Positions 1,769-17,653 of a stretch of 22,137 bases of DNA are shown in pieces. Origin of the DNA: a virus. A model generated the notes under the pieces. That model had not been told where the DNA came from, searched no databases, and was given only the letters and a program-made list of their open reading frames with translations. The DNA lies in the IMG/VR virus record IMGVR_UViG_3300032235_000224, positions 1 through 22,137 of that record; one strand, 5' to 3'. Numbering within the stretch: position 1 is the first letter of the stretch; every line of letters starts with the position of its first letter. Made by a program: the position numbers and the translations under genes.

Positions 1769-2180
1769 TATCAGTCTTTAATTGTTGTATCATCTTTTGA
1801 AGCTCAGCTGTAGAGCCAACAAATAAATTGTTATTGATAGTTTTAGCCTTTTCGTTTATTGGGCTGTCTGCAGCATCTAATTCACGAATATCTTTTTGAA
1901 GCCCCATAAGATCTTTATTAGCTTGAAGCATAGTTTCCATCATCTTAGCAAGAACTTCAAAAGCTCTTGGATGCTGAGATTGAGTCGCTATCTGAGTAAG
2001 TTTGTGCATAGCATCTTGACCTTCTTCTATCATGGTCAAAATGTTTGCTCTTGCTGTTTCAAAGTCAGCTTTTGCACTATCATTATGAGCATCAGCTACA
2101 ATATTAGTAATCGTAGTTGTTGTTAAAGGGTTAATACCTAAAGCTCTGCCAATTGGATCATTATTAGATTGTTCACTCAT
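1761..2180 (-). CDS. 16: Terminase small subunit gp16 (TerS)
   Basis: This 139-residue protein lies directly before TerL, as gene 16 does in T4. Its central part (about residues 40-105) is largely helical and charged, with the pattern expected of the coiled-coil oligomerisation region. The C-terminal segment around NNLFVGSTAELQKMI resembles the T4 gp16 segment with FMGSPTEL. TerS forms a ring that recognises concatemeric DNA and regulates the TerL ATPase and nuclease. The start overlaps the gp15 stop by 4 bases (ATGA), and its own 3' end overlaps the TerL start by 8 bases, so 15-16-17 are coupled in translation. TerS proteins diverge quickly, so the call relies on position plus the C-terminal motif. 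Confidence 0.9.
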   Translation of the reverse strand: MSEQSNNDPIGRALGINPLTTTTITNIVADAHNDSAKADFETARANILTMIEEGQDAMHKLTQIATQSQHPRAFEVLAKMMETMLQANKDLMGLQKDIRELDAADSPINEKAKTINNNLFVGSTAELQKMIQQLKTDNG

Positions 2181-3785: not shown

Positions 3786-4466
3786 TTAAACGCATAAAAT
3801 TTTTTGTTTGCATTTTTCATTATGGTATCTCGCCACATTTCCTTTATTGCCTACGAAATTGCAATATGTGCATTTAATTTTCATATTATTTAGGGTTTTA
3901 AAGGCTGTAGTTTCTTTTATTTTGTTTTTGTGTTCTTTAGTCAATTTATGACCACGGTTTGCTGCTGCTGCCATTGCAAGAGCTTTAGAATTGTCCTTAC
4001 CTACATTTTTACCGATCATAGATTGACGACGTTTTTCACGAACTTCTAGTTCAGAAGATCTATTATCTCTAGTAGATAAACCAGCAAGATATTTTTCACG
4101 AACTTCAGGACGATACATTGCTTCTTTTGTTTTTTGAGAAATTTTTTCTGATATTGACAATTTTGTATTTTCGTCTGTGGTCCAGTGACCCCATTTATGT
4201 TTTCTCAAATTGTAATATTTTTTACCAAGATCTTTTTCTTCAATTAGAGACATCCATCGATGCTCTTCTTCGAACATTAGTTCTCTGTTAGAAATGTTAC
4301 TTGATAATATTTTACGTTTGAAATCAGCTGGTCTTCGTTTGTACGCCTTACGCATTCTATTTGAAGAACAGATATAACCATCAGTTTCAACACCCCAATG
4401 ACAACCTATATAATACATTTTACGTTTCTTATCAAACCAAATATAAACGAATCCATATTTATGCAT
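3786..4466 (-). CDS. GIY-YIG homing endonuclease with C-terminal zinc-finger-like motif
   Basis: This 226-residue protein has an N-terminal GIY-YIG nuclease domain: GFVYIW at 5-10 and YYIGCH at 18-23, followed by a basic stretch (RMRKAYKRR) and a glutamate-rich EEEH at 66-69 that should hold the metal-binding residue. The middle (about 100-185) is basic and carries NUMOD3-like repeats, for example around SISEKISQKTKEAM and RGHKLTKEHKNKI, which bind DNA in phage homing enzymes. The end has CxxC-x12-HxxxC (C199, C202, H215, C219), a likely zinc finger. It sits between neck genes 13 and 14 and is not itself a virion gene. It has its own sigma70-like promoter and an AAGGAG site 5 bases before the ATG. 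It probably cuts a related genome lacking the insertion, near the 13/14 junction. There are no stops or frameshifts, so it may be active. Confidence 0.9.
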   Translation of the reverse strand: MHKYGFVYIWFDKKRKMYYIGCHWGVETDGYICSSNRMRKAYKRRPADFKRKILSSNISNRELMFEEEHRWMSLIEEKDLGKKYYNLRKHKWGHWTTDENTKLSISEKISQKTKEAMYRPEVREKYLAGLSTRDNRSSELEVREKRRQSMIGKNVGKDNSKALAMAAAANRGHKLTKEHKNKIKETTAFKTLNNMKIKCTYCNFVGNKGNVARYHNEKCKQKILCV

Positions 4467-4530: not shown

Positions 4531-5271
4531 CTAACCTATCATATCCGTAGCTGGTAATGAATATGTAAAGATCATTTCCTTTTCAAGAACTTCTCTTTCG
4601 CCAGTAGCTTCATCGTAAATTTTTTGACCATTAAATGTCAAACCGCCTGGCATTTTCATACCATCAAACTTCTTAAGGTTTGTGCCCCACTGTTGCTTAA
4701 TTAAACAAGCAGCATAACGGAGCAGCCAACGATCAGACCAAGCATCAGTATAAGTTGTAGGATCGACAACCTCATAAGCTTCAACAATTATGTATTCGCC
4801 AGTATTGATACGATCCCAGTCCATGTCAATGTATAATTTATTAACATGACGATTATATCTTAGTGGTTGTTTACCGACCAAAATATACTCGAGAAACTGA
4901 ATGTGCTGCAAAGCCATATAATACGGAGTCATTGCGACAGATGTCAAAGTGTATAAGTCATTAAGAGCGATCTGATAACGAATATTGAATAGATTGTTAG
5001 TACCAAGAGCGGACCCAAGATCAAATATATTAATAACGCCAATGATATTTTCTGGCATTGTAATATATTTGTTGATTTTGTCTTGGTTAGTGACTTGATA
5101 CTTGTAATAAATTTTTTCTGAACCGTCGAAATGGTAGTCCCAATAGTATCGAAGAGCTTCATCGATCCTATCCTCTACCTGATCGTCATCGACGTTGATT
5201 TCGATAACAGGTTTACCTAATCGGCGTAAGCAATTTTCTTTAAAATCTGCTCTTGTAGTTGGTGATGCCAT
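4531..5271 (-). CDS. 13: Neck protein gp13
   Basis: This 246-residue protein starts MASPTTRADFKENCLRRLGK and continues with PVIEINVDDDQVEDRIDEAL, a signature of the gp13 head-completion proteins of T4-like cyanophages. It is shorter than the 309-residue T4 gp13. The central part carries the expected aromatic-rich segment (around residues 110-165, including DMDWDRINTGEYIIVEAYE), and the end has WLLRYAACLIKQQWGTNLKKF. It acts with gp14 after packaging to seal the portal vertex and give the docking surface for the tail. The ATG has an AGAGGA site upstream and a GATAAATA box about 23 bases before the start. In an uninterrupted genome gp14 would follow directly, but here the endonuclease gene lies between them. 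Confidence 0.94.
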   Translation of the reverse strand: MASPTTRADFKENCLRRLGKPVIEINVDDDQVEDRIDEALRYYWDYHFDGSEKIYYKYQVTNQDKINKYITMPENIIGVINIFDLGSALGTNNLFNIRYQIALNDLYTLTSVAMTPYYMALQHIQFLEYILVGKQPLRYNRHVNKLYIDMDWDRINTGEYIIVEAYEVVDPTTYTDAWSDRWLLRYAACLIKQQWGTNLKKFDGMKMPGGLTFNGQKIYDEATGEREVLEKEMIFTYSLPATDMIG

Positions 5272-5293: not shown

Positions 5294-5301
5294 TATTTAT
5301 C
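5294..5301 (-). promoter_or_regulatory. Late-promoter-like box (GATAAATA) before gp13
   Basis: Minus-strand GATAAATA overlaps the TAA stop of the preceding glycine-rich gene and lies 23 bases before the gp13 ATG. It fits the relaxed NATAAATA late box of T4-like phages and would give the neck, tail and terminase genes their own late start. Confidence 0.6.
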
Positions 5302-6217
5302 TTATAACCCATACACGAACTTCGCCACGAGCACCGTTTACTACTGAAGCGGTTGTAGAAATAACTCCGCCTCCTCCTCCCGGAACAGTAGGTCCAACTG
5401 TAGTATTTCCACCTGTGCCTCCAAAAATAGAAATTCCTGAAAGAGATCCTCCGCCAGCGCCACCGAATATAGAATTTCCTCCTCTACCAAGATTACCACC
5501 ACCACCGCCACCATAAATTGAAGCACCACCAGTCCCAGTTGCAGTGTTAGTACCCCAAGTAGTTCCGCCTCCACCACCAAAAGTAGAAACGCCTCCACCA
5601 CGTGCGTCGTTTACACCGTTTGCGCCACCTAAAGGCGCTCCTCCGTTAACTGATCCATTAACACTACCACCTACTCCTAAAACTCCACCACCACCGCCTC
5701 CATCATCTTGACCGCCTCCTCCGGCTGGACAACCACCACCTCCATATACTATATAAGATCCAAATAGAGTATTTCCTCCATTAGCGCCTGCACCACCAAT
5801 AGTTGAACCTGTACCACCTAAACCTACTGTAACAGAAACTGTGTTTGTGAGAGAAGAAAGAGGAGTTGTGAAGGTAAGAAATGCTCCTCCACCGCCACCA
5901 CCGCTGCCAGCGCCAGCCGCAGTACCACCACCACCACCAGCCCACATCATAATAAATGCTGAAGAATTAGCATCTATACCAGCTGGTTTTGTCCATGTTC
6001 CATTTGCAGTAAATATTTGAACATTAGCTATACTACCAGATATACCACCAGCAAAAGGAACTCCCCCAATATTAAGTAAAGGAGTAAAAATAGATTGAGA
6101 ATTTACGATTGAATTACCAACAGTTATTTGGGTGGTGTTAACAGAAACTACACCAGTAGTAACAGTTGAAGATGTGATAGAATTTACTGTAGCGTTAGAA
6201 ATTGATAAGCTTGACAT
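5297..6217 (-). CDS. Glycine-rich tail fibre-like adhesin (paralogue A)
   Basis: This 306-residue protein has two parts. Residues 1 to about 62 are Ser/Thr/Asn/Val-rich with VNTTQITVGNSIVNS, the same beta-repeat style (VNTT.I.VGN..VNS) seen in the 773-residue fibre protein. From about residue 67, VQIFTANGTWTKPAG begins a glycine-rich domain that continues with long GGGGG tracts to the end, closing with GARGEVRVWVIR. Such domains occur at the tips of phage tail fibres, and the polyglycine composition recalls the gp38-type adhesins of T-even phages, where receptor binding is carried by glycine-rich loops. It is the last of three tandem paralogues, starting one base after the previous stop. Its 3' end shares an exact 24-base match with the neighbour. 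Attachment as a fibre tip is inferred, not shown. Confidence 0.75.
   Translation of the reverse strand: MSSLSISNATVNSITSSTVTTGVVSVNTTQITVGNSIVNSQSIFTPLLNIGGVPFAGGISGSIANVQIFTANGTWTKPAGIDANSSAFIMMWAGGGGGTAAGAGSGGGGGGAFLTFTTPLSSLTNTVSVTVGLGGTGSTIGGAGANGGNTLFGSYIVYGGGGCPAGGGGQDDGGGGGGVLGVGGSVNGSVNGGAPLGGANGVNDARGGGVSTFGGGGGTTWGTNTATGTGGASIYGGGGGGNLGRGGNSIFGGAGGGSLSGISIFGGTGGNTTVGPTVPGGGGGVISTTASVVNGARGEVRVWVIR
5307..5330 (-). repeat. 24-base direct repeat, copy 1 (3' end of paralogue A)
   Basis: These bases are identical to 6235-6258, 928 bases away. They encode the last residues RGEVRVWV of the glycine-rich protein. The flanking coding sequence is similar but not identical, so this is a stretch of high identity between paralogues, suggesting recent duplication or gene conversion. 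Confidence 0.85.
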
Positions 6218-6218
6218 T

Positions 6219-7160
6219 TTACGTTACCTTAGTTACCCATACACGAACTTCGCCACGACCACCATTCATCGCTGTAATATTTGTAGGATTACTAACTCCT
6301 AATGTAGCACCTCCACCAGCAGGACTTAATGCAGAAACAGAACTATTACCGCCTCTACCAGCAAATATAGAGTTACCACTAACTCCTGAAAAAGTGCCAC
6401 CACCACCGCCATATATAGAATTGCCGCCTCGACCAGAAGAAGCAGCAGCGCCACCACCACCGCCATATACAGAATCTCCACCATTGCCACCTGCAGAAGT
6501 GCCTCCACCACCACCTCCAAATGTCGAATCACCTCCTGTAGCTCCAGCAGCTCCTCCTAAAGGCGAGCCGCCGATGCTACTTGCTCCTGAAGCAAACCAT
6601 CCAGCTCCAGCTCCACCTGCTGATAATCCTGATTGACCACCATATGCTGAAATAGAAAACGATGAATTCGACCAAAATACACTATTTCCACCAAATGTTG
6701 ACGCAGAAGAACTATTACCACCTAAACCTGCAGATCCAACAAAAACATTGCAAATAGCATTACATTCACCAGCAAGTTTATTTACAATAACACAAGATCC
6801 ACCACCACCAGCCCCTGCTAGGTTTGGAGATGCACTAGAATACCCACCGCCTCCACCGCCCCATAACATAATGGTTATAATATCATTAGCATTTGTTCCT
6901 GCTGGTTTTGTCCATGTTGTCCAACCGGGAGTTGTAAATGTTTGATAATTTGTGTTTCCACCATAAACAGTAATTGTACTGATAGTTGTACCGTTTAGAG
7001 TTATCAAGTTGGCAGATACTGCGGTAGAATTTACTAAAGTTTGAGAAATAGAATTGCCAACTAAAATAGCAGTAGAATTAATGACTACGTTCGAACCTAC
7101 TCTAATAGTATTTGCTGATATTGAATCTGAAACTAGTGATGTTGCGTTTACTGTTGACAT
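6219..7160 (-). CDS. Glycine-rich tail fibre-like adhesin (paralogue B)
   Basis: This 313-residue protein has the same architecture as its neighbours. The N-terminal 70 or so residues have the GSNVVINSTAILVGNSI repeat style. A junction follows with FTTPGWTTWTKPAGTNAND (about residues 74-92), then a glycine-rich domain with repeated FGGGGGG and YGGGGG units, and a closing GGRGEVRVWVTKVT. The repeated SVYGGGGG / SIYGGGGG / SIFAGRGG units suggest stacked polyglycine-type strands. The start codon is fused to the stop of the upstream paralogue as TAATG, so translation is coupled. A role as a receptor-binding fibre tip is an inference from composition and from the fibre cluster around it. Confidence 0.75.
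   Translation of the reverse strand: MSTVNATSLVSDSISANTIRVGSNVVINSTAILVGNSISQTLVNSTAVSANLITLNGTTISTITVYGGNTNYQTFTTPGWTTWTKPAGTNANDIITIMLWGGGGGGYSSASPNLAGAGGGGSCVIVNKLAGECNAICNVFVGSAGLGGNSSSASTFGGNSVFWSNSSFSISAYGGQSGLSAGGAGAGWFASGASSIGGSPLGGAAGATGGDSTFGGGGGGTSAGGNGGDSVYGGGGGAAASSGRGGNSIYGGGGGTFSGVSGNSIFAGRGGNSSVSALSPAGGGATLGVSNPTNITAMNGGRGEVRVWVTKVT
6235..6258 (-). repeat. 24-base direct repeat, copy 2 (3' end of paralogue B)
   Basis: Identical to 5307-5330 and located at the same place in the paralogous gene. The third paralogue (stop at 7160) encodes a similar end, RGEIRVYTL, but has diverged at the DNA level. Confidence 0.85.
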
Positions 7161-8071
7161 TATGGTACAATCCTTAATGTATAAACTCTAATTTCTCCTC
7201 GACCGCCAGCGCCTCCACCAGAAGTGTTGGCACCACCACCACCGCCAGGAGCATTACCATTTATTGAAGCAACTAAGTTTTGTGTTTCTCCTCCAGCCCC
7301 ACCGTAAACAGAAGATCCTCTTGGAAACCCACCACCACCCCCACCATATATTGAAGCGCCTCCACCTGCAGTAACATTGTAAGAGCCTCCGCCACCTCCA
7401 TAAACGGAACTTCCTGCAGTTGTATTTGTAGTATTTGCACCAGCTCCGCCACCAAATGTTGAAAATGCACCAGCGGTATTACCACCTAGCGGTCCACCAC
7501 CAGAAGTTGATGTTCCGGAAGAAAACCAACCACCACCGCCTGGACCACCAGTTGCTGTACCGTATTGTGTGCTATTGGCACCACCACCACCATAAACTAT
7601 AAATGTATTACTGTTAAACCCAGAAAACGCTCCAGGATTTCCTGTAGCACCACCCGTACCTCCTGCACCAACATATAAAGAAACAGAGCTGCCTAATTGG
7701 TTTGTCATATAATAAGCAAAGGCAAATCCACCACCTCCTGCACCACTTATGAAAGAAGCATTGCCTATACCTCCTCCGCCACCACCCCACATATGCACAA
7801 TAACAAGTTCATTGCCTGTAGTAGCCCAAGAAGGTTTAGTCCAAGTTCCATCACCGACAGTTGTAAATATTTGTGTATTAGTCGCTTCAACATTAAAAGA
7901 ACTAAAAGATGTTCCGTTTACAGTAACAGACGATACATTACTCACATTTCTCAATTGTGTGTTACCAACAGATAAAGAGGCTGTATTAATGATCGTATTA
8001 CCCACATTAATTTGTGAGTTCGCTGTTAATGTGTTGTTAGATTGAAGTGACGAAACTTGTAATATTGACAT
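7160..8071 (-). CDS. Glycine-rich tail fibre-like adhesin (paralogue C)
   Basis: This 303-residue protein is the first of the three tandem paralogues. The N-terminal region (1-60) has NSQINVGNTIINTASLSVGN, the fibre beta-repeat style. TQIFTTVGDGTWTKPSW (about 67-83) marks the start of the glycine-rich domain, with motifs such as HMWGGGGGG, SSVYGGGGG, ASIYGGGGGG and a closing RGEIRVYTLRIVP. It has its own AATAAATA box upstream and an AAGG site before the ATG, so a late transcript probably starts here and covers paralogues C, B and A. The TctC-like gene immediately upstream is separated by 40 bases. The exact function is unknown; a fibre-tip adhesin is the best reading. Confidence 0.75.
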   Translation of the reverse strand: MSILQVSSLQSNNTLTANSQINVGNTIINTASLSVGNTQLRNVSNVSSVTVNGTSFSSFNVEATNTQIFTTVGDGTWTKPSWATTGNELVIVHMWGGGGGGIGNASFISGAGGGGFAFAYYMTNQLGSSVSLYVGAGGTGGATGNPGAFSGFNSNTFIVYGGGGANSTQYGTATGGPGGGGWFSSGTSTSGGGPLGGNTAGAFSTFGGGAGANTTNTTAGSSVYGGGGGSYNVTAGGGASIYGGGGGGFPRGSSVYGGAGGETQNLVASINGNAPGGGGGANTSGGGAGGRGEIRVYTLRIVP

Positions 8072-8093
8072 TTATAACCTTAATTTTTAATTT

Positions 8094-8101
8094 TATTTAT
8101 T
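8094..8101 (-). promoter_or_regulatory. Late-promoter-like box (AATAAATA) before paralogue C
   Basis: Minus-strand AATAAATA lies in the 40-base gap between the TctC-like gene and glycine-rich paralogue C, 23 bases before the ATG. The spacing is the same as for the GATAAATA box before gp13 and matches a late start. Confidence 0.5.
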
Positions 8102-8117
8102 TAACTATTAGTTAAAT
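8099..8117. repeat. 19-base perfect AT-rich palindrome at the end of the TctC-like gene
   Basis: The sequence is ATTTAACTA-T-TAGTTAAAT, 9 bases on each side of one central base. It spans the stop codon of the TctC-like gene and touches the AATAAATA box. As RNA it could form an 8-pair hairpin with a 3-base loop. There is no T-run after it on the minus strand, so it is not a classical terminator. It could be an operator or an mRNA-end hairpin, or chance in AT-rich DNA. Confidence 0.5.
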
Positions 8118-9032
8118 TGGATTTCTGTCCTCTTTTTCTTCAGAAATTCTTTTTAAAATTTCTTGTTCTCTAACACAAGTACGTGGCATAAAGTTTCTCT
8201 TAATAATTCCTTCGTCTAGATCAGAGTTATTGCACAATTTAAAAATTAAAGGAGAAAGAGCCTTTATCAATTTAACATCGTTTTTCGGTATAGCAAAAAC
8301 TGATAAAGACTCATATGTTAATTCTTCAACACCCAATTCTTTCGCAGTAGGTATATTTGGTAAAGAAGGAGCTCGTGTTTCATTTAATATAGCAATAGGT
8401 CTCAACGATGGTAAATCGACAATATTTCTTATCGTATAATCAATTTCTCCACTCAATAGTGCCTGAGCTATCTCATTAGGCTGACGATAGTCCAAAAATA
8501 TAGTTTTATTCCTCAAGTTAAATTTATTAGAAAATAATTTACCCAAATAAAGACTAGATGTCGAAGAAACATTATTACCATTAAAAACTTTATCTTTTTT
8601 TTGTAAATTTTTAACAAACTCTTCAAAATTTTTAGCATCATTATTAGGCGAAACTAAAACAGCAAAAATTCCTGTGCTAACACCACTAACAAAATAAAAG
8701 TCGTTTTCGCTCCAATTTTTTTGTTTTTCACCATTTCTAGTTACAAATGTTGTCGTAAATGTTGATATAGGTCCGAACCAAAGAATACTTCTGCCAGCTC
8801 TAGAATATTCTAAAGAACTAACTACAGCAGTTTCGCCATTAGCTCCAGGAATATGTGTGTATCTTAATCTATATTCTGATTGCATTTCGTTAAGTGCACG
8901 AATAGCATGTACTGCATTTTGGGAAATAGCAGTAGAATTATTATATCTGCTAATAACATCTACATTTTCAAACGCAAAACTGCTGCTGATTGACAACAAA
9001 CTAATAAACAAATAAGTCAAAATAAATTTCAT
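8112..9032 (-). CDS. TctC/Bug-family periplasmic substrate-binding protein with signal peptide
   Basis: This 306-residue protein begins with a clear signal peptide, MKFILTYLFISLLSISSSFA, with likely cleavage after A20. The mature part matches the tripartite tricarboxylate transporter receptor family: IPGANGE at 61-67 (family GAGG-like loop), DFYFVSGVSTGIFAVLVSP near 111-129, LLSGEIDY at 192-199 (family LLGGQVD), and RAPSLPNIPTAKELGV at 220-235 (family R.P.LPDVPT..E.G). In bacteria these proteins capture carboxylates or other small organic molecules in the periplasm and hand them to TctA/TctB. No TctA or TctB is in this window. The start was moved from a TTG at 9053 to the ATG at 9032, which has AGAGGA upstream and begins the signal peptide directly. 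It lies inside the fibre cluster and uses the same AT-rich codons. It may be an auxiliary metabolic gene comparable in logic to phage PstS. The ligand is unknown. Confidence 0.85.
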   Translation of the reverse strand: MKFILTYLFISLLSISSSFAFENVDVISRYNNSTAISQNAVHAIRALNEMQSEYRLRYTHIPGANGETAVVSSLEYSRAGRSILWFGPISTFTTTFVTRNGEKQKNWSENDFYFVSGVSTGIFAVLVSPNNDAKNFEEFVKNLQKKDKVFNGNNVSSTSSLYLGKLFSNKFNLRNKTIFLDYRQPNEIAQALLSGEIDYTIRNIVDLPSLRPIAILNETRAPSLPNIPTAKELGVEELTYESLSVFAIPKNDVKLIKALSPLIFKLCNNSDLDEGIIKRNFMPRTCVREQEILKRISEEKEDRNPI

Positions 9033-9049
9033 TTTAATAAAATCCTCTA

Positions 9050-9268
9050 TCAATTAAAACCAAAGCTCATAAATGATGCCATCATTGCTGGACCACCATC
9101 TAAAGAATCGTAAGTAATTACAATCACACCTTGCGCCCCTTGACCGTTTTGAGCGTATATTAAACTAGCAGATCCACCACCACCGCCATAATTACCACCT
9201 GAACCTGCATAATAAACTTGTGGTGGAGGAGGTGGATCTGGGTCTGGTGGGGGAGGAGGTGAAGTCAT
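9050..9268 (-). CDS. Mini glycine-rich protein with polyproline N-terminus
   Basis: Only 72 residues: a proline/aspartate run at 4-16 (PPPPPDPDPPPPP), then YYAGSGGNYGGGGGSA, then GAQGVIVITY and a short tail ending FMSFGFN. The last two parts resemble the C-terminal end of glycine-rich tail fibre proteins, where GxxGxVVITY closes the domain. It therefore looks like a detached fibre-tip fragment with a proline linker, either a small separate protein or a remnant of a larger gene. It has AAGG upstream of its ATG. It starts 17 bases after the preceding glycine-rich gene and ends 17 bases before the TctC-like ATG. The open frame and usable start argue that it is expressed. Confidence 0.6.
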   Translation of the reverse strand: MTSPPPPPDPDPPPPPQVYYAGSGGNYGGGGGSASLIYAQNGQGAQGVIVITYDSLDGGPAMMASFMSFGFN

Positions 9269-9285
9269 GCTATAATACCTTTCTA

Positions 9286-10347
9286 TTAAACATCAGAGTA
9301 ATACGAACCAGCACCACCGCCACCAGATCCAACTATAGTAATAGTAGATGGAACATATTCTTTTCTAGTAGTAGTTGTGCTGTAATTTGTAACAGTAGAA
9401 ACTGTTGTCCAGTTAACGTTATCTGAAGAAACATCAAGTGTCCAAGAAACTGGATCTCTATTTGACACATCTTCTGCAGTTGCCCAAGCATAACCATTAA
9501 ATGTTTTTGCCGAACCTAAATCAATAGTAAAGTTCCAGGGAGAAGTTGTCACACCAGTATAATACTTAGAGTTTAAATTACCATCAATCAAATTATTCGC
9601 CCCTTGTTCTGCAATACTAGCTGCTCTTGAAGATGTAATTGTAGAACCTGCCATATTTAAGACAGTATTAGAATTTATCAGTATAAACTCTGAAGCTTGC
9701 ATATCACTACCCGGAGAACGCAAAGCTGTAACAGACCATCTAACATATCTGAATGTTTGAGAGCTAATTGAAAACCCTACAACGTTAGAAGATAGATCTA
9801 AACCAGCGCCAGCAACTTGGCTTGATCTTCCTTGAGAACTGACTGCAACGCCTCCACCACCACCAGCATTGTTAGCGGCTCGGCCACCATTAGCATGGGC
9901 TTGAACTGTCATCGTACCGTTAAACCCGTTAGCACCATTGCCTGCTGGTCCACCAGCACCACCACCGCCGCCACGTTGAACACCACCGTTACCACCAGAA
10001 AATTTAATAGTGCCAACAGAAGAAGCAGCTGAACCACCAGGAGCACGTGCTCCTGAAGAAGTGGCTCGACTACCGCCAACAGCTGTTAACGTTGAAGCAT
10101 TTGCAAACTGAGTCGTACCACCATCAGTATTAACTGCACCGCCTGCACCTATGGTTATAGCTATAGTTTGCCCAGGAGTAGCTGTAAAATTATTTATTCT
10201 TGAATAAGCTCCACCACCGCCACCACCAGTTAAGTGCCAACCACCGCCCCCACCGCCAATCGCTTCAATACGGTTGTTAGAAGAGTTCCAATCGAAGGGT
10301 ACAACCCAAGTTGTACCAGAAGTTATAACTATAGTTTTTTGAGGCAT
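9286..10347 (-). CDS. Glycine-rich fibre protein with F5/8C (discoidin)-like domain near the C-terminus
   Basis: 353 residues. Positions 1-30 (MPQKTIVITSGTTWVVPFDW) open a glycine-rich domain covering about 30-183. At about 199-333 there is a discoidin-like (F5/8 type C) carbohydrate-binding domain: FRYVRWSVTALRSPGSDMQ, an ASEFILI strand, NLIDGNLNSKYYTG, WNFTIDLGSAKTFNGYAW and SWTLDVSSDNVNWTTV. All are typical of this fold, where the loops grip sugars. A short STITIVGSGGGGAGSYYSDV then returns to the glycine-rich style. The discoidin domain thus seems to be inserted near the end of a glycine-rich tip protein. It probably binds host surface glycans. It starts 3 bases after the stop of the upstream small gene. 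Confidence 0.8.
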   Translation of the reverse strand: MPQKTIVITSGTTWVVPFDWNSSNNRIEAIGGGGGGWHLTGGGGGGAYSRINNFTATPGQTIAITIGAGGAVNTDGGTTQFANASTLTAVGGSRATSSGARAPGGSAASSVGTIKFSGGNGGVQRGGGGGAGGPAGNGANGFNGTMTVQAHANGGRAANNAGGGGGVAVSSQGRSSQVAGAGLDLSSNVVGFSISSQTFRYVRWSVTALRSPGSDMQASEFILINSNTVLNMAGSTITSSRAASIAEQGANNLIDGNLNSKYYTGVTTSPWNFTIDLGSAKTFNGYAWATAEDVSNRDPVSWTLDVSSDNVNWTTVSTVTNYSTTTTRKEYVPSTITIVGSGGGGAGSYYSDV

Positions 10348-10350
10348 TAT

Positions 10351-10593
10351 TTACACCCTAGTAAATATTAAATTGTCTTCGTCTGGATTACTACTATGAT
10401 ATCCTTTTTCCGGATTCCATTTAGTTTTATTGATTTGTATTATACTAATCATCTTATATAAACCATGATAAGAATAAAATGGTTCTGGCATAGGAACGAG
10501 ATAATACCCTTCTATCGTATCATTTTCACTGCACATAATTATATTTTCAACAATTTCAGTTTCTTTATTGACTACTGCGTATCTATCAGTCAT
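10351..10593 (-). CDS. Small protein of the fibre cluster, unknown function
   Basis: The chosen start at 10593 gives 80 residues beginning MTDRYAVVNKETEIVENIIM. A GGAAGG site lies 8 bases before it, and the overlap with the upstream PP-loop gene is 8 bases. An earlier ATG at 10620 would overlap by 35 bases and add nine residues. The N-terminus (YAVVN.ET.IVENII) resembles a recurrent small protein found next to phage tail fibre genes, where such proteins are often fibre assembly helpers. The rest is acidic and tyrosine-rich, with WNPEKGY near residue 60. I do not recognise a defined family with certainty. The position between two fibre-related genes is the best clue. Confidence 0.6.
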   Translation of the reverse strand: MTDRYAVVNKETEIVENIIMCSENDTIEGYYLVPMPEPFYSYHGLYKMISIIQINKTKWNPEKGYHSSNPDEDNLIFTRV

Positions 10594-11464
10594 CAACCAA
10601 ACCTTCCCAAACTCCGACATTGTTTCTTAATCTAATAGACTCTCTAGAAGTGCTAAGGAAATAATCTATCACTTCTTGTTTATTTTCAAAATTAGGGTGT
10701 TTAAACATGTGAAGTGGTGGTTTTCTGCCTGTTTCTAAATATATCCAATATTTTACAGGCGCCATTAATTCTCCACCACCATATTCGTAAGCTGTTTGTA
10801 TTCTATATTTATCTATTTCTTCGGGTGTTTTACCAGATTCTAACATATTGTTTATATGAATGTTCCACAAACACTTATGACATATATTACAAGGAACTAA
10901 ATTGTTTTGGTTATCTTTAAAAGGGAAAGAACAACTAAAAGTTTTTTCTAAAATGTGTTTTGGTAATTGGGTTATAGCGTGAGCTTTAGAATAATTTTGT
11001 ACATAGTCGTGAGTAGCTAATGGGTTCCAAAGCTCTCCCCTCGTAATCAATTTATTAAATAATCTTTCGCCAGCTATCGAAACAGGAGAACGATCGTAAT
11101 TCTTTAATATTTTTTGACCTGCTTGTTCCCAGCTATGACCTGTAACTATTCTATCAAAAATATTATTGTTCAAATAAGGAGCGGCGAAATTGATAAAAAA
11201 TGTATAGAAGGAATTCAATTCATCAGTAATTTCGCTCTTATTACATTTTTTCATAATAAAATTGAAATTTCTTATCTTTTTCAATTCTTCTACCAAAATT
11301 AGACATTTTTCGTATAAGAAAAGGTCTCCTTGGAAAAGCATTCCTTCACGATCTGGAACATAGAGAAATACACAGGTTAGCTCGTCGTCTGTTTCTGTTA
11401 ATAATTTCCAAGCTATATACGTAGAATCTATGCCACCACTAAATGCTAACAGAGATCTTTTCAT
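10586..11464 (-). CDS. PP-loop ATPase, QueC-like (7-cyano-7-deazaguanine synthase family)
   Basis: 292 residues from the ATG at 11464; a TTG one codon earlier is less likely. The N-terminus has the PP-loop LLAFSGGIDSTYIAW (SGGIDS at 9-14), which binds ATP for adenylation. A later SCSFP...CNICHKC arrangement (C178, C192, C195, C198) matches the zinc site of QueC (a cysteine, then CxxCxxC). QueC makes preQ0, a precursor of queuosine and of 7-deazaguanine DNA modifications in some phages. This protein is longer than typical QueC (about 220-230) and I cannot find the family's usual SGYPDCR-like segment, so its substrate may differ. No other queuosine gene is in the window. Its start is fused to the preceding fibre gene stop (TGATG), and it lies within the fibre cluster. 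Confidence 0.75.
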   Translation of the reverse strand: MKRSLLAFSGGIDSTYIAWKLLTETDDELTCVFLYVPDREGMLFQGDLFLYEKCLILVEELKKIRNFNFIMKKCNKSEITDELNSFYTFFINFAAPYLNNNIFDRIVTGHSWEQAGQKILKNYDRSPVSIAGERLFNKLITRGELWNPLATHDYVQNYSKAHAITQLPKHILEKTFSCSFPFKDNQNNLVPCNICHKCLWNIHINNMLESGKTPEEIDKYRIQTAYEYGGGELMAPVKYWIYLETGRKPPLHMFKHPNFENKQEVIDYFLSTSRESIRLRNNVGVWEGLVDD

Positions 11465-11913
11465 CAAACGGAACCATCAATAATAACAGAGTTAGCAGCA
11501 TGCTCAAATACAGAAAGCGAAGCCCAGCGCTGTGAAAGCGTGTAGTTACCACTACGAGAATTTAATGTTACGCCAGCTGCATTACTAACGACAACGTTTC
11601 CAGTATTAATCATATAAACCATACATCTGAAACCTACAGGCAGATCTGCTGGAACTGTGATAGTTGTCGCGGCAGTATTAGAAACTGTGAGTACAGAACC
11701 GCTGTCAGCATTTGTTAATGTATAGTTAGTTGTTAAAGCTCTAACGAACAAATTAGAACTGGTAATGCTACCGTTAACTGACATGTTAGTTGAATTAACC
11801 GTGGTTAAGTTGGTGCCGCCAGCAACGATTATGTAAGAATTAGATCCGGCAAATTGAATTCTGTTATTACCAGTAGATTCAAGATGAATGTTTGCAACTA
11901 ATAATGTACTCAT
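11464..11913 (-). CDS. Short tail fibre-like protein
   Basis: 149 residues without glycine tracts. The start MSTLLVANIHLESTGNNRIQ follows the MSTL.V..I pattern of the other fibre genes here. The second half, NYTLTNADSGSVLTVSNTAA, then TTITVPADLPVGF, a VYMINTGNVVVSNAAGVTL strand pattern and an ending with SVIIDGSV, matches a common phage fibre C-terminal domain (beta structure with an xTVP..LP.G core). It is preceded by AGAGGA at good distance from the ATG. The gene directly follows the XkdW-like small protein gene (16-base gap), a pairing often seen for fibre proteins and small helpers. Confidence 0.7.
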   Translation of the reverse strand: MSTLLVANIHLESTGNNRIQFAGSNSYIIVAGGTNLTTVNSTNMSVNGSITSSNLFVRALTTNYTLTNADSGSVLTVSNTAATTITVPADLPVGFRCMVYMINTGNVVVSNAAGVTLNSRSGNYTLSQRWASLSVFEHAANSVIIDGSV

Positions 11914-11929
11914 ATTATCCTCTTAATTA

Positions 11930-12247
11930 TTACATGATAGGTTTTGGTATATTGTTTTTGACATTTTGTATTCTTTCTTTCCAACCTTCAATGCCATGAT
12001 CGAAAATCATTTGCAATTGTTGTTCAGCTGTTGGATAATGTTTTAGTCTTTCAATTCTATAGTCATAAAACGGAGAAAAAGAAGCGTATTTATCAGCCAT
12101 GATCAATTCTTCTTCCGTTGGCTTGGGATAAAACAAATCTTCCCAAATTATATGTTCATATTTCCAACCGCCTTCAGGAATAGTTTCTTGAGAAAGTTTC
12201 CATTTAGCTTGTGGTAAAATAAACATAATAGCTGCGATATAATCCAT
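11930..12247 (-). CDS. XkdW-like small tail-associated protein
   Basis: 105 residues. The first part has a LPQAKWKLSQETIPEGGWKY segment and a PKPTEEELI stretch. The end reads YDYRIERLKHYPTAEQQLQM, then IFDHGIEGWKERIQNVKNNIPKP. This closely follows a widespread phage small protein pattern (R...YP...QLDMI...G...W...I..VK...P.P) found beside tail fibre genes and annotated XkdW-like or tail-assembly-associated. It carries no membrane or signal sequence. The ATG has an AGGGA site upstream. A helper or chaperone role in fibre assembly is plausible but not demonstrated by sequence. Confidence 0.75.
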   Translation of the reverse strand: MDYIAAIMFILPQAKWKLSQETIPEGGWKYEHIIWEDLFYPKPTEEELIMADKYASFSPFYDYRIERLKHYPTAEQQLQMIFDHGIEGWKERIQNVKNNIPKPIM

Positions 12248-12259
12248 TTTATTCCCTAG

Positions 12260-13441
12260 TTAGTAGTATAAAATTACGTAACCATGACCGCCATGACCGC
12301 CTTCATCAGCGCCTTTAGCATATCGTTCAGTAGAACTGTTTGATAAATCTGGGTCATTATAAAAAGGTGGAATAAACTGTTGACCTGTATATGTAGCTCC
12401 CATTATAACACCAGAACGTATAAAACCTGAACCACCACCGCCACCACCCATACTATTGGTGCCATAACCTCCTGCGCCACCACCAAAATATCCACCTCCA
12501 CCACCGCCTGAATACGGAGCGGCATTAGTACCTGATCCACCTTGAAAAGATGCACCTGAACCACCAGTATTGATAGTACCAGTTCCACCAGCACCGCCAG
12601 CAGCTTGTGTTCCACCTTTGCCGTTATTGTTGTTACCGTTAATTGAGTTTACTACTCCACATTCTCCAATAAGACCTCCGCCAGCGCCTCCGCTATTTAA
12701 ATCATAGCTGTTGACAGATCCTCCTCCGCCTCCACCACCAGCTACTATAACAAAGCTATTCGATTGAGATGGAACTCTGATAGAAGAAGAACCACCCCCA
12801 GAACCTCCATATCTATTGTCTGTGCCTGAAACAGAAGCTCTGCCTCCATCCGGATAAGCATTAGTAGAACCTGGTACTGCTAATCCTCTTCCACCAACTC
12901 TAATTGATATGGTTTCGCCTGGAACAACTGGAATAATTCCGTGACTGAATCCACCAGCACCACCTAGAGATCCTTGTCTCCAACCACCATAAGAGCCACC
13001 ACCTCCACCACCTCCCCACATCTTAACAAAAATATAATTAACGCCTGCAGGAACTACTAAGCTTTGATCAGCTCCAGTATGTGTGTAATTGTATCTAGTT
13101 TTATTAATAGGTGTGATTATACCATTTTCTAGTTCGAAATCGAACCCATATACAGTAAATATTTGTCTTCTGTTTGTAGTATCTAATTTAAATTCTAAGT
13201 TAGAATCGCTTGATAATAATCTATTACCTGTAATTCTTCCGCCTGTAACAGCTAAATTAGCGGATAAAGTAATGTCACCGTTAGCAGCACTTGATAAAGC
13301 GTTTGTAGTAGAATTACTTTGAATAAGAAACCCACCACCAGATTGAACTGTCAAGGAACCTGCATTTGTATTACCAGTAGTCAACGCAAGGTTCGTTGTA
13401 CCATTAGACGTATTGATTATTCCTACTGTTAATGTACTCAT
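12260..13441 (-). CDS. Glycine-rich tail fibre-like adhesin with MSTL-type N-terminal module
   Basis: 393 residues from the ATG at 13441, chosen over one at 13474 because an AAGGAC site precedes it and because MSTLTVGIINTSNGTTNLAL matches the start of the neighbouring fibre gene. Residues 1 to about 65 share a module with that neighbour (TSNGTTNL, GN..AG.L.VQ..GG...QSNSTTNA). A linker with QIFTVYGFDFELENG follows, then a glycine-rich domain from about 128 (NYIFVKMWGGGGGGG) to near 350, and a closing EGGHGGHGYVILYY. The middle alternates YSGGGGGGYFGGGAGGYG and similar units. It is the longest of the glycine-rich set. A receptor-binding tip role is inferred from composition and from its fibre-like N-terminal module. 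Confidence 0.78.
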   Translation of the reverse strand: MSTLTVGIINTSNGTTNLALTTGNTNAGSLTVQSGGGFLIQSNSTTNALSSAANGDITLSANLAVTGGRITGNRLLSSDSNLEFKLDTTNRRQIFTVYGFDFELENGIITPINKTRYNYTHTGADQSLVVPAGVNYIFVKMWGGGGGGGSYGGWRQGSLGGAGGFSHGIIPVVPGETISIRVGGRGLAVPGSTNAYPDGGRASVSGTDNRYGGSGGGSSSIRVPSQSNSFVIVAGGGGGGGSVNSYDLNSGGAGGGLIGECGVVNSINGNNNNGKGGTQAAGGAGGTGTINTGGSGASFQGGSGTNAAPYSGGGGGGYFGGGAGGYGTNSMGGGGGGSGFIRSGVIMGATYTGQQFIPPFYNDPDLSNSSTERYAKGADEGGHGGHGYVILYY

Positions 13442-13455
13442 AATATATGTCCTTT

Positions 13456-14046
13456 TTAAGTGATACTTGGCCAACCAGCAGAAAAATCGATTGTTTGTAA
13501 CACTACAATAGTAGAAGTATCTATCAAATTATAATATTCGGCTTCTTTATTAAAGCATAGCTGCACGTGATCTCTAACACTATTAACAACCTCTAATGCT
13601 TGGTTGGCGTTTAAAGTAACAAATTTGTTCTCTAAAGTTTTCCAAGTTATAGACCAAGTTTCTACGTTTGATTGAGAAACATCAACAGCCACTGCTACAT
13701 ATTTAGTTTGGGATTCGCGATCGGTTGAGTAAACGTTATTTGATACAGTAATACCACCAACTTCAACTTCGTATCTTTTACTAGTAACAGATCTCTTCAA
13801 TAATTCTCTAGGCAATAAAGAAGAAACCCAAGTTTGCGACCAAACATTATTGCTTAAAGTAGGCTGCGATTCAGTATATTCCCAACCAACATTAGCTACT
13901 GGTTTACTTGTAGGTTGAATATAAACGTATTCATCACCATTTATGATTCCACCTTGCCAATTTTCTGGAAACCCAACATTAGTGTGTTCTAAGGATGGAA
14001 ACGCTGGATAATTTATTATTGTGTTTGATGATATTTTTGCATACAT
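13456..14046 (-). CDS. DUF4376-like tail fibre-associated protein
   Basis: 196 residues. The central and C-terminal part (about 83-180) has the DUF4376 pattern: LKRSVTSKRYEVEVGGITV, STDRESQTKYVAV, ITWKTLENKFVTLNANQAL and RDHVQLCFNKEAEYYNLI. DUF4376 domains are common in phage proteins near tail fibres, often in tail fibre assembly or tail collar proteins. The N-terminal 80 residues (tryptophan- and proline-rich, with PENWQGGIINGDEYVYIQ) are not familiar. It begins 7 bases after the stop of the glycine-rich gene and ends 14 bases before the next ATG. It is probably not an adhesin itself but a structural or helper part. Confidence 0.75.
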   Translation of the reverse strand: MYAKISSNTIINYPAFPSLEHTNVGFPENWQGGIINGDEYVYIQPTSKPVANVGWEYTESQPTLSNNVWSQTWVSSLLPRELLKRSVTSKRYEVEVGGITVSNNVYSTDRESQTKYVAVAVDVSQSNVETWSITWKTLENKFVTLNANQALEVVNSVRDHVQLCFNKEAEYYNLIDTSTIVVLQTIDFSAGWPSIT

Positions 14047-14053
14047 AGGTTTC

Positions 14054-14758
14054 TTAACTCCAAGATATTACTATTCTTCCAACAGCACCATTGCCTGCAT
14101 TTACTCCAGGAGACCAATCTGTTGCACCACCAGCACCCCCAGGAGCAGAACCATCTCTAGGTTGATTGTTGTTACCGTCACCACCATTTCCTCCAGCTCC
14201 ACCAAAGGTAGAAGTACCGCCTGTGCCTGAACCAAAATCGTTGGTATTACCACCACCGCCACCCCCAGCATAAGTTACTGAAGCGCCATTATTCGGTCCT
14301 AAACCACCAGCACCACCACTTTCTGAAATAGTTAAATTAAATCCGGATCTACTGAAAGTAGGGGTAAAGGTGTTAGAAGAACCACCTGCAACAAGCTGAC
14401 TGTTGCCACCTCTTCCTCCTGTAACACCAACAGTATTACCGAATTGCGTAAACCCTCCTGCTGATGAAGCTGTAGAAGAACCACTTCCTCTTAAACCACC
14501 ATTACCTATAACTAGATATTCATTAGTTCCCGGAGTTAAAACACCAGGGTTTAAAGTATATCTTGCGTAATTGCCACCAGTACCACCAAATGCTTGTGCA
14601 GCACCATTAAAAGAAGTGCCTCCGCCTCCTCCACCGCCCCACATTTCAATAGTTAAGATGTTATATCTTGGAACAGTAAAGGTATTAGCACCAGCAGCAG
14701 TATAAGAAACGTTACCACCACCTACTCCAGCTTGTATCATCATATCATGATGTAACAT
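14054..14758 (-). CDS. Glycine-rich fibre-tip-like protein
   Basis: 234 residues, glycine-rich almost from the start. MLHHDMMIQAG is followed by VSYTAAGANTFTVPRYNILT, a beta-type opening like that of the other tip domains (the FTVP and EMWGGGGGGG pairing). Glycine tracts and FGG/YAGG units follow, ending GAVGRIVISWS. It has no fibre-like N-terminal module, unlike the neighbours, so it could be a separate tip protein that sits on the product of the gene just upstream, in the manner of gp38 on gp37. Its ATG follows the upstream stop directly (TAAATG), so translation is coupled to that gene. The pairing of a module-bearing short fibre and a bare tip is an inference from the layout. Confidence 0.72.
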   Translation of the reverse strand: MLHHDMMIQAGVGGGNVSYTAAGANTFTVPRYNILTIEMWGGGGGGGTSFNGAAQAFGGTGGNYARYTLNPGVLTPGTNEYLVIGNGGLRGSGSSTASSAGGFTQFGNTVGVTGGRGGNSQLVAGGSSNTFTPTFSRSGFNLTISESGGAGGLGPNNGASVTYAGGGGGGNTNDFGSGTGGTSTFGGAGGNGGDGNNNQPRDGSAPGGAGGATDWSPGVNAGNGAVGRIVISWS

Positions 14759-15295
14759 TTATCTCAAGTCCCTACCTGTTTGCATACCTCTCCAATTAGT
14801 TCCACCATCGTCTGTAAATAATACATAGACATCATTATTAGTTGAAGGAGAAGGAGCAGTAGCTCCTGACCATTTTACTGACGATGGCCAAGACAAAGTG
14901 TTACCACCAGCTCCGTTAGAGAATCTTAGCGTAACTGAATAAGCAAAGCTAGCTGGGATGCTACTAAAATAAACATTTTGAGCCGAAGAATTTGCGACAA
15001 CCACAAAATAGTTACCAGAAGCGCAATTGATATTGTGATTATTTCCTGCGGATAATGTTGAAGATTTTACGACGTAGTTACCGTCGATATGAAGTTCCGC
15101 TATAGGAGAAGTATTACCAATGCCAACATTACCAGAAGCGGAAACGAAAATTGCATTAGTCGTAGAATTACTTTGAAAAAGTAATCCTCCATCAGTTTGA
15201 ACGACTAATCTGCCTGCATCGTTATTGCCACTAGCTACAGATAAATTTACTGTGCCGTTAGCTGTTCTAATTGTTGTTACTGAAAGTGTACTCAT
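14759..15295 (-). CDS. Short tail fibre-like protein with MSTL-type N-terminal module
   Basis: 178 residues. The N-terminus MSTLSVTTIRTANGTVNLSV and the following GN..AGRLVVQTDGG and QSNSTTNA repeat the module of the 393-residue glycine-rich gene, followed by NVGIGNTSPIAELHIDG, the GIG.TSP motif seen in the large fibre. The second half is different: a beta-rich domain with NINCASGNYFVVVANSSAQN and an ending with SSVKWSGATAP, NNDVYVLFTDDGGTNWRG, a common phage fibre C-terminal pattern. The start is fused to the stop of the 773-residue fibre gene as TAATG, and the stop is directly followed by the next ATG. Confidence 0.75.
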   Translation of the reverse strand: MSTLSVTTIRTANGTVNLSVASGNNDAGRLVVQTDGGLLFQSNSTTNAIFVSASGNVGIGNTSPIAELHIDGNYVVKSSTLSAGNNHNINCASGNYFVVVANSSAQNVYFSSIPASFAYSVTLRFSNGAGGNTLSWPSSVKWSGATAPSPSTNNDVYVLFTDDGGTNWRGMQTGRDLR

Positions 15296-17616
15296 TAGAT
15301 AATTACCGCCCTTCCATTTTCTTCAATAGTTAGTGTGAATCCTTCTTGGACTGTAATTGGACCTGCTGTTAAAGCGTTTTCTCCAGCTGAAATTGTTATA
15401 TTGTTAGATTGAGTATTAGAATTTATACGATAAAGATTGTTTATATTGTTAGCATTACCGAAAGTGCCTCTATTACCTTTATAGTAGCCACCGCCTGAAG
15501 CGACAGCACCATTAACATACAAACCAGTTGAATTTACAACAGCGTTTTGAGAAGAATTACCAATGGATAACGTAGTTTGATTTATGACTACGTTGGATAT
15601 AGAGTTACCAACAAAATAAGCAGAAGTATTGATCGATAAATTAGATCCAAGACTTATTGTGCCAGTAAATGTTGGCGAAGCTTTTGGAGCAAGAACGTTT
15701 ACTGCGTTACTGTAAGCACTTGCTGCTGAAGTGTTAGCAGTAATCGCAGCATCATATGCAGTTTTAACTGATGCAGGAGTTGCAGCAGTTGTTGTACTTG
15801 TCGAAGAAACTGAATCTGTTAACTGAACTATACCAGCACCAGAAGTTGTTCCAGCGTTTAATCTAGAGTTATTAACAGTTCCAGAAGTGAGATTGTTTGC
15901 ATTAGCAGCAATTGCAATCGCGTTAGTATAAGCTGTTCCTGCAGTAGTATCACTGTAACTTCTCAAATCAGAAGCAGTGTTTCCACCAAGAGTCGAGGCG
16001 TTGATGCTAGTAATAGAAGAACCATTACCAGAAATATTTACTGCTACAATGTTGTTAGCAAAAACATTTCTCCATCTTAAACCTGTAAGACCAATATCCC
16101 AGCTATTGTTCGCTGAAGGTATGAGACCTACGTTATATTCCCAAGTATTCGATGCAAATGTATATCGCATAGAAGCGCCAGAAACATCAACAGTTAATCC
16201 AGCACCATCTGTAGCAGCAGCTGTTGCAGAACCTTTTGCTACTGTAATATTTTTGTCTGCTACATCAAGATTTGTTACGTTAGCATACATTGTTGTGCCA
16301 GTAACAATCAAATTGCCGCTAATTGTTACGTTAGCATTTACTGCAACAGGACCGCTAAATGTAGCTCCAGAAAGAGTAGCATAGTTCGTTAAGTTAGAAG
16401 ATAATTGTGTTGATGTTACATAAGAAGAATTGATATGAACACCAGTCGCATTAACAACTAAACCTGTGTTACCAAGAACGTTAATACCAGCTGATGTAAC
16501 TGAAATACCATTAGCACCAGCAGCAGCAATAGCGTCTGCCGTAACAGAAATACCATTACCAGATCCAACGTTTAATGTAACATCGCCAGAAGTTCCACCT
16601 CCTGTTAAACCGTTACCAGCTTCTACGCCAGTAATATCTGCAGTTAAAGTGACCCAATAAGCATTCGCAGCGCCACCAGAAGTCAATACTTGACCAGCAG
16701 AACCTACGCCACCATTAGCATTAACTTGACCACCAAGAGTTAACAAAGTAGAAGTAACTACAGTATTTCCTACGTCTACTGCAGTAGAATTTATAAAATT
16801 GTTCGAACCTACAGCAATAGTAGTAGTATTAACTACTGAAATGCCAGAAGATAATCCTAAAGCATTAACGTTAGTAGTTGCTGTAGAGTTAGCAACTTGC
16901 AATAAAGAAGAAGTTTTTGTAGAATTAACTGTAGAATTACCAACAAAAACAGTAGAAGAATTAGTGAAAACGTTAGCGCCAACAGAAATTTGGGTTGTAT
17001 TAACTACTGAAATACCAGAAGATAAACCTAAAGCATTAACGTTAGTAGTTGCTGTAGAGTTAGCGACTTGAAATAGAGAAGATGTATGCGAAGCATTAAT
17101 AGTATTATTGCCAACGAATACAATAGTTGTATTTTGTACTGAACCACCAGTTCCGGAACCTGTAGCGCCAGTGGTAAATGATGAAGCATTAACAGAACCA
17201 GTGGCTAAAATACTGGTTGTTCCAGGAGTTATTTGTACGTTACCTGTAGAATTGGCAACAGATAAACTTGAAGATGTTTGTGTTGTAGTACCATTACCAA
17301 CAGCAATTGAACCAGTATTAGCAATAGTAACTGTAGGCGAAGTTGTCGAATTGCCTGTCCAAGTTAAACTTGTAGCAGTTAAAGCTATATTAGATCCAAG
17401 AAAACTTATGCCAGTAGCATTAACAACAGTATTAACGGTACTGTTTCCGAAAATTAAATTGCTAGATGTGATTCTATTATTCGATGTGCTGTTTCCGATA
17501 AAAACAGCAGAGGTATTCAGTACAAGATTAGAACCAAGGGCTACTTGTGTAGAGTTAGCTGTGAATGTGGTATTTACTACCAAGCCATTCTTTACTACGA
17601 AATCGTTATCTGCCAT
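15295..17616 (-). CDS. Large tail fibre-like structural protein (773 residues)
   Basis: The N-terminus MADNDFVVKNGLVVNTTFTA and the many VNTT.I.VGN..VNST units (about 10-290) are typical of large tail proteins of marine T4-like phages. Residues 179-290 hold a 57-residue repeat in two copies. Then come GQVLTSGGAANAYW (308-321), GNGLTGGGTSGDVTL, a LIPSANNSWDIGLTGLRWRN segment (498-517), and a phage tail fibre repeat AGIVQLTDSVSS...AATPASVKTAYD (594-622). The end, ISAGENALTAGPITVQEGFT then GRAVII, is a usual fibre terminus. The protein is low in cysteine and charged residues, as beta-structured fibres are. An exact TATAAATA box is 30 bases upstream of the ATG. Which fibre it forms is unknown. 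Confidence 0.85.
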   Translation of the reverse strand: MADNDFVVKNGLVVNTTFTANSTQVALGSNLVLNTSAVFIGNSTSNNRITSSNLIFGNSTVNTVVNATGISFLGSNIALTATSLTWTGNSTTSPTVTIANTGSIAVGNGTTTQTSSSLSVANSTGNVQITPGTTSILATGSVNASSFTTGATGSGTGGSVQNTTIVFVGNNTINASHTSSLFQVANSTATTNVNALGLSSGISVVNTTQISVGANVFTNSSTVFVGNSTVNSTKTSSLLQVANSTATTNVNALGLSSGISVVNTTTIAVGSNNFINSTAVDVGNTVVTSTLLTLGGQVNANGGVGSAGQVLTSGGAANAYWVTLTADITGVEAGNGLTGGGTSGDVTLNVGSGNGISVTADAIAAAGANGISVTSAGINVLGNTGLVVNATGVHINSSYVTSTQLSSNLTNYATLSGATFSGPVAVNANVTISGNLIVTGTTMYANVTNLDVADKNITVAKGSATAAATDGAGLTVDVSGASMRYTFASNTWEYNVGLIPSANNSWDIGLTGLRWRNVFANNIVAVNISGNGSSITSINASTLGGNTASDLRSYSDTTAGTAYTNAIAIAANANNLTSGTVNNSRLNAGTTSGAGIVQLTDSVSSTSTTTAATPASVKTAYDAAITANTSAASAYSNAVNVLAPKASPTFTGTISLGSNLSINTSAYFVGNSISNVVINQTTLSIGNSSQNAVVNSTGLYVNGAVASGGGYYKGNRGTFGNANNINNLYRINSNTQSNNITISAGENALTAGPITVQEGFTLTIEENGRAVII
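16741..17082 (-). repeat. Two-copy 171-base tandem repeat inside the 773-residue fibre gene
   Basis: Two units of 57 codons (residues 179-235 and 236-292). The first half of each unit (SS-L-QVANSTATTNVNALGL then SSGIS) is nearly identical at DNA level, with only a few changes between about 16826-16898 and 16997-17069. The second half is similar but more diverged. Recent tandem duplication is likely, and copy number may vary between related phages. Confidence 0.85.
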
Positions 17617-17645: not shown

Positions 17646-17653
17646 TATTTATA
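17646..17653 (-). promoter_or_regulatory. Late promoter box (exact TATAAATA) before the 773-residue fibre gene
   Basis: Exact T4 late promoter consensus TATAAATA on the minus strand, in the 40-base gap before the fibre gene ATG at 17616. It ends 29 bases before the ATG. A purine-rich GGGGAAAGGGAA ribosome binding region lies between. This is the best late-promoter candidate in the window. Confidence 0.75.

Follow-up and report, generated by a model that had tools for sequence, protein, structure and literature searches.

Why should a single phage locus hold seven glycine-rich, adhesin-like genes? The window analysed here, the whole 22,137-base stretch of IMG/VR record IMGVR_UViG_3300032235_000224, is a virus fragment whose fibre and glycine-rich genes are encoded on the minus strand. 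All seven glycine-rich open reading frames (ORFs), of 72 to 393 amino acids (aa), are present on that strand between positions 5297 and 14758, as described in an earlier note made from the sequence alone. That note treated them as a single array, a view that comparison with related loci does not sustain. Instead, three of them (G3, G2 and G1) form an ordered orthologous trio, found in nine lineages including the window, and the remaining four (G4 to G7) are phage-specific single genes, unlike the trio. The reading favoured here, with a probability of about 0.6, is that the trio encodes three different trimeric receptor-binding tips that are made and used as a set, perhaps in a branched complex. 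The impression that the number of genes is striking also holds: the window carries seven, versus zero to four (mode one) over the same span in 33 related loci, each extending 9 kb or more upstream of gp13, a comparison in which some loci were fetched for carrying trio genes, inflating the counts.

The trio occupies positions 8071-5297, upstream of the head-tail adaptor gene gp13 (4531..5271, minus strand; phrog_211, 1.5e-42), which serves as a conserved downstream anchor. In order of transcription, slot A is G3 (7160-8071; 303 aa, 27% Gly; ending in RGEIRVYTLR), slot B is G2 (6219-7160; 313 aa, 24% Gly) and slot C is G1 (5297-6217; 306 aa, 31% Gly; ending in RGEVRVWVIR). Each joins an N-terminal VGN fibre module to a glycine-rich domain. 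The first lead to the trio was a relative of G3 in L088 (L-numbers denote related loci compared with the window), where it is one of three consecutive glycine-rich genes that precede gp13. Complete trios in the same order occur in eight further lineages: L088, L090, L092, L093/L096/L111/L113, L094/L109/L110, L095/L112, L103 and L106/L107. L102 and L104 contain partial runs, also in this order, that are ended by the contig edge. The genes are closely coupled. The end of A and the start of B share a single base in five lineages (the window, L094/L110, L112, L103 and L107), the G2 start overlapping the G3 stop in the window as TAATG, while B and C are spaced 1-4 bases apart in most trio loci, with window G1 starting one base past the G2 stop. 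In L092, a homing-type gene (9278-10000) that is 38% identical to the window ORF at 3786-4466 lies between slots A and B, and the trio is intact.

Phylogenetic analysis of 34 glycine-rich domains places slot A in one clade (support 100/99) and slot B in another (98/95). Slot C forms the remainder of the tree and is recovered as a single clade in only 21% of bootstraps. Slot labels change twice over the whole tree, the minimum possible, and leave-one-out profiles, in which the tested locus is excluded, assign 33 of the 34 domains to the correct slot. Slot position is a matter of orthology, and the order is fixed. An independent scan with the A family recovered no A member lacking B and C. Because the whole set and its order are conserved, we infer that the trio members act as a set. 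The earlier note had proposed "alternative or combined" tips; the combined option is supported by the ordered trio, with no assigned member found alone, while the alternative option fits less well. Separately, all 12 B-slot members have exactly three cysteines in the glycine-rich domain, a feature that is not conserved in A or C.

The homology among A, B and C extends along the entire proteins and takes in the N-modules. Since the three N-modules are homologous, the trio genes are, as judged by sequence, paralogues as whole genes, and their divergence predates that of these phages. The N-terminal module spans about 67-98 residues where no domain is inserted. In the window trio, 67, 73 and 67 residues precede the Q-x-F-T motif, the shortest shaft in each slot. 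In some C-slot members, namely those of L096 and L094, PA14 and GLEYA domains are inserted; both bind carbohydrate in other proteins.

This homology also suits a different arrangement, in which A, B and C are three chains of one heterotrimeric tip with three receptor faces, and loops are exchanged chain by chain. A precedent for such chain assembly is C1q, whose A, B and C chains make up one head. To our knowledge, no heterotrimeric fibre tip of this sort has been described, and it would be new. The full-length homology, the fixed order and coupling of a three-gene set, and the fact that a family-assigned slot member is never seen alone all agree with a heterotrimer, and the short window shafts mildly favour close packing, although this is a single post hoc case. 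However, the sizes of inserted domains are unequal between slots of one phage (L094, L088 and L107), and solved relatives such as Pam3 gp24 are homotrimeric (PMC9608196). These two points favour a branched set of homotrimers and make the heterotrimer an unlikely arrangement.

Structural modelling points to what the trio proteins may do. In the model of G2, most of residues 70-310 are predicted with confidence, and the fold of residues 67-313 matches the Bxb1 tail tip (9d93, Z 16.9), the Pam3 fibre (7ypx, Z 12.8) and ALK/LTK glycine-rich domains (Z about 7), with the next matches at Z 3.5 or less. G2 thus has the Pam3/Bxb1-type fold, a beta-sandwich with a glycine-rich tip, over about 180 residues; the other members are linked to it by homology only. 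Fold matches of G2 among predicted viral proteins are mostly annotated as "glycine-rich domain-containing" and minor tail proteins, and tail and fibre PHROG matches occur among the locus proteins. The related closing strands seen in the earlier reading correspond to the glycine-rich domain's final beta strand, which the G2 model places at residues 304-310.

In Pam3, gp24 forms a trimeric fibre that binds the receptor; its glycine-rich domain is distal and receptor-facing, with variability rising toward the end (PMC9608196). Glycine-rich adhesins have also been implicated as a host-range determinant in haloarchaeal viruses (PMC8651126). Because the fold matches, the distal domain of Pam3 and the PA14/GLEYA inserts point the same way when taken together, A, B and C are most likely receptor-binding tips, as predicted from sequence and model. 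Domain families and fold therefore back the adhesin-like nature that the earlier note had assigned to these proteins, as proteins of the tail-fibre-tip type. Its suggested kinship with T-even gp38 fares differently: none of the seven proteins matches the gp38 family at E up to 1, and the G2 model resembles the glycine-rich domains of Bxb1, Pam3 and ALK. The S16 gp38 structure (6F45) is not listed among the G2 fold matches, an absence that says nothing about fold.

Comparison across relatives suggests that the trio is mobile. It is absent from L004 and L061, whose gp13 is 86% and 84% identical to that of the window, and present in L096 (86%). As trio presence does not track gp13 closeness, the cassette seems to be gained and lost in one piece. 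In the pair L096/L111, synonymous divergence (dS) is 0.27 for A and 0.41 for C, versus 0.98 for gp13, which is consistent with cassette transfer. In one related pair, the trio members have overall ratios of nonsynonymous (dN) to synonymous divergence of 0.21-0.26, indicating purifying selection.

The pair L096/L093 records the replacement of a single tip. Over most of the fibre locus the two share 94-97% DNA identity, and the other slots are 93% (A) and 98% (C) identical. Within the B gene, DNA similarity becomes undetectable from about codon 125 to codon 312. Protein identity is 96% in the N-terminal part, drops to 58% in the tip and recovers to 88% in the final strand, while dS rises from 0.21 in the N-terminal part to 2.3 in the tip (residues 125-312). 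The B tip of L093/L096 has been replaced by recombination. Positive selection or fast point mutation was considered as the source of this divergence and is ruled out by the rise of dS along with dN. A 53-base block, about 91-94% identical between the A and B copies in L096/L093, offers an exchange site. A smaller change separates L094 and L110, which share more than 99% DNA identity across the trio and differ in A by a 12-residue glycine-rich insertion. The comparison supports the earlier note in that tips are exchanged, and paralogues share short, near-identical blocks of DNA.

Single-tip swaps of this kind can also be read as a sign that the tips are independent alternatives that compete for one attachment site, so that particles vary in specificity. 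The related N-modules and the differing number of extra tips among phages agree with such competition. Nevertheless, the trio keeps its members, order and slot identity in a locus of otherwise fast turnover, and replacement takes place within a slot, leaving its N-terminal part untouched. Competing alternatives are accordingly distinctly unlikely.

In the favoured reading of three homotrimers used as a set, each slot protein would consist of an N-terminal docking or shaft module and a distal glycine-rich domain carried on a beta-sandwich, and each tip would be a homotrimer, as in Pam3. The three tips would sit together on the tail, docked via different but homologous N-modules in a branched or serial arrangement, which would resemble the tailspike complex of CBA120 (PMC8825819). 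Distal loops on a glycine lattice would touch the host surface, with carbohydrate-binding PA14 and GLEYA domains added in some C slots. With the set kept whole and single tips exchanged, host recognition could be retuned without loss of assembly. G5 (with G4), G6 and G7 would be further phage-specific tips within the same broad family of folds.

Several observations weigh against this reading. The N-terminal shaft of the G2 model (residues 1-68) has a predicted local distance difference test (pLDDT) score below 50. The trio loci come largely from searches that started from trio members, with uneven coverage elsewhere, and L097 contains a lone related protein that fits no slot. In a mirror-tree test, the A, B and C distance matrices correlate weakly (r 0.18-0.29, not significant). 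The same result counts against the heterotrimer, yet neither arrangement clearly predicts a correlation, and with sequences near saturation the weak values may reflect saturation or independent exchange. Searches of phage isolates by tblastn, with G3 and relatives of the trio as queries, found no trio homologues, which is weak evidence of absence given that the low-complexity filter masks much of these proteins. The A1 profile likewise has no match among PDB sequences, and NCBIfam yielded no match. The open-access papers searched contain no description of such a trio, which proves no absence elsewhere.

The four genes outside the trio are more varied. Gly_rich_2 (PF21722) is matched above its curated cut-off by G2, G3 (1.5e-10), G5 (1.3e-7) and G7 (7.5e-11), while G1 (22.8 versus 24.3 bits) and G4 (a partial match) fall below it. 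Only G6 exceeds the curated cut-off for ALK_LTK_GRD (PF12810; 1.1e-14, 55.5 versus 24.5 bits). Counted by domain, the glycine-rich proteins number six to seven; six are full-length, G4 being the exception. The other genes of related loci mostly have 3-15% glycine. G7 (14054-14758, minus strand; 234 aa, 29% Gly) is a free Gly_rich_2 protein encoded directly after the fibre genes, in a gp38-like position. Modelled with six relatives, it reached a mean pLDDT of 44, and the model was left out of the fold searches. G6 (12260-13441, minus strand; 393 aa, 25% Gly) combines an N-terminal module of the F178 type with an ALK/LTK-like glycine-rich domain. Both G6 and G7 are assigned by family profiles only. 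The fibre-type N-terminal modules that the earlier note saw in several proteins are found in G1-G3, as VGN repeats like those of the 773-aa fibre, and in G6, as in the 178-aa fibre; they are missing from G4, G5 and G7.

G5 (9286-10347, minus strand; 353 aa, 18% Gly) contains Gly_rich_2 without its C-terminal end, along with an F5/8 type C (galactose-binding-like) domain (PF00754, 1.5e-9). G4 (9050-9268, minus strand; 72 aa, 19% Gly) has a proline-rich start and the C-terminal end of Gly_rich_2 only. Because the two cover complementary positions of PF21722 (4-180 in G5, 192-225 in G4) and G4 directly follows G5, they look like one split domain, and G4 is probably the detached end of G5. Fusion through simple read-through is ruled out by an in-frame TGA before the G4 ATG. 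The junction (9050-9288, minus strand) includes a stretch rich in proline, PPPPPDPDPPPPP; read on the complementary strand, it would give glycine repeats, which may reflect a small local inversion. No relatives of G5 or G6 were found by tblastn against phage isolates, a search in which the BLAST low-complexity filter masks much of these proteins.

The partial domain of G4, together with matches to phrog_863 ("tail fiber assembly"), raises the question of whether some glycine-rich proteins are chaperones, decoys or remnants, with G4 a decaying fragment and G5 and G7 assembly factors. In contrast, the domain families and the G2 fold resemble distal receptor-binding tips, and purifying selection acts on trio members in the one pair noted above; such roles are very improbable. 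Tandem glycine-rich genes also occur elsewhere, as a separate run of three paralogues with 48-51% mutual identity, not orthologous to the trio, in L025 (1710-4831) and as a pair in L037. Given these tandems, glycine-rich tip sets probably arose more than once.

The wider window is the tail-fibre/adhesin locus of an environmental T4-like phage, with a T4-like gene order from fibre to neck to terminase. Its minus strand encodes large fibres of 1302 and 773 aa along with small fibre proteins and the glycine-rich set, then the neck and terminase genes: gp13, a GIY-YIG-like homing-type ORF (identified by eye, with no Pfam match), gp14, gp15, gp16 and gp17, the names gp15 and gp16 resting on position and on homology within related loci. 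By terminase, the phage isolate collection compared contains no close relative; the closest cultured terminases, at 47-57% identity, belong to the Sinorhizobium phages phiN3 and phiM12, OM43 and SAR11 myophages, and cyanophages. In L020 (14159-16857), the terminase large subunit seemingly lies in two ORFs with another ORF between them, perhaps an intron or homing insertion. The exact T4 late-promoter motif TATAAATA has a single site in the window, at 17646, which is below chance expectation, and sigma-70-type and terminator-like sites are about as frequent as expected by chance.

The fibre genes, all on the minus strand, include F773 (15295..17616), with VGN repeats and a Phage_fiber_2 repeat, the small tail-fibre protein F178 (14759..15295; phrog_9017, 5.3e-14), a DUF4376 tail-fibre-type protein (13456..14046; phrog_10508, 4.2e-24) and the small fibre protein F149 (11464..11913), homologues of which are present in trio loci. 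The stretch 5297-14758 also contains genes that are not glycine-rich, including the DUF4376 gene and minus-strand small ORFs of 105 aa (11930..12247; phrog_9114) and 89 aa (10351..10620; phrog_18617), both PHROGs having no assigned function. A PP-loop/QueC-like protein outside the fibre set (10586..11467, minus strand; phrog_1550, 2.8e-9, residues 1-36 only) sits in the middle of the fibre locus and has SGGIDS near its start and CxxC-type cysteines. Directly upstream of the trio lies a TctC-like periplasmic solute-binding protein with an apparent signal peptide (8112..9029, minus strand; PF03401, 2.7e-9, above cut-off); its reading frame opens with a TTG at 9053, and the ATG at 9029 is the preferred start. 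TctC proteins are receptors of tripartite tricarboxylate transporters, and two such genes flank the L103 trio (149-1063, plus strand; 1051-1962, minus strand). Neither tblastn nor pattern scans of phage isolates, viral contigs and genome contigs found relatives of the TctC-like gene, and scans of viral contigs found none of the QueC-like gene, so no host can be inferred from them. In L096, a gene upstream of the trio encodes a 2OG-Fe(II) oxygenase (6858-8063, minus strand); similar oxygenase genes precede gp13 in Pelagibacter phage HTVC008M.

The common view of phage fibre tips is one protein per tip, swapped for host change. By the present analysis, some phages may touch their host with three different "fingertips" in a fixed set instead of with one. 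These are T4-like environmental phages with an ordered set of three diverged tips, apparently mobile as a unit, and one tip can be substituted on its own. Should the three work together, adsorption would need or offer several simultaneous contacts, which bears on the evolution of receptor-binding sets and on host prediction from fibre genes. The slot profiles provide a simple marker for detecting the cassette, and the pair L093/L096 serves as a natural experiment, the two trios differing in essentially one tip.

Among known systems, cyanophage Pam3 gp24 (7YPX/7YFW) comes close, as a myophage protein with an N-terminal docking part and a TNF-like beta-sandwich bearing a distal glycine-rich domain (Z 12.8 over 181 residues). 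Unlike the trio, it is a single gene forming a homotrimer; its docking domain is helical, and gp25 is its separate chaperone (PMC9608196). G2 has its strongest fold match in chain Qa of the mycobacteriophage Bxb1 tail tip (9D93; Z 16.9 over 182 residues, 30% identity), a likeness by structure match only, whereas Qa is a single protein of a siphophage tail tip. T-even gp38 (T2, S16 and PP01) shares glycine-rich motifs around hypervariable loops at the fibre tip, and G7 has a similar position after the fibre genes; gp38, however, is reported to be a polyglycine II sandwich with a beta-helix domain that caps a gp37 trimer (PMC12892980). The OM43 myophage Melnitz (MZ577098) is likewise T4-like and has about four Gly_rich_2 proteins in its genome, but the A, B and C profiles find no match among the ORFs of its 41.6-kb stretch (L083). 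Hafunaviridae adhesins are glycine-rich fibre proteins encoded in a hypervariable region whose changes track host range, but these archaeal viruses are described as having one adhesin gene plus a small gene (PMC8651126). The tailspikes TSP1-4 of CBA120, for which no sequence relationship to the trio is expected, are similar in that one phage uses several receptor-binding proteins together, which in CBA120 form a branched complex via their N-terminal domains; they differ in being four enzymatic beta-helix proteins without the glycine-rich fold (PMC8825819).

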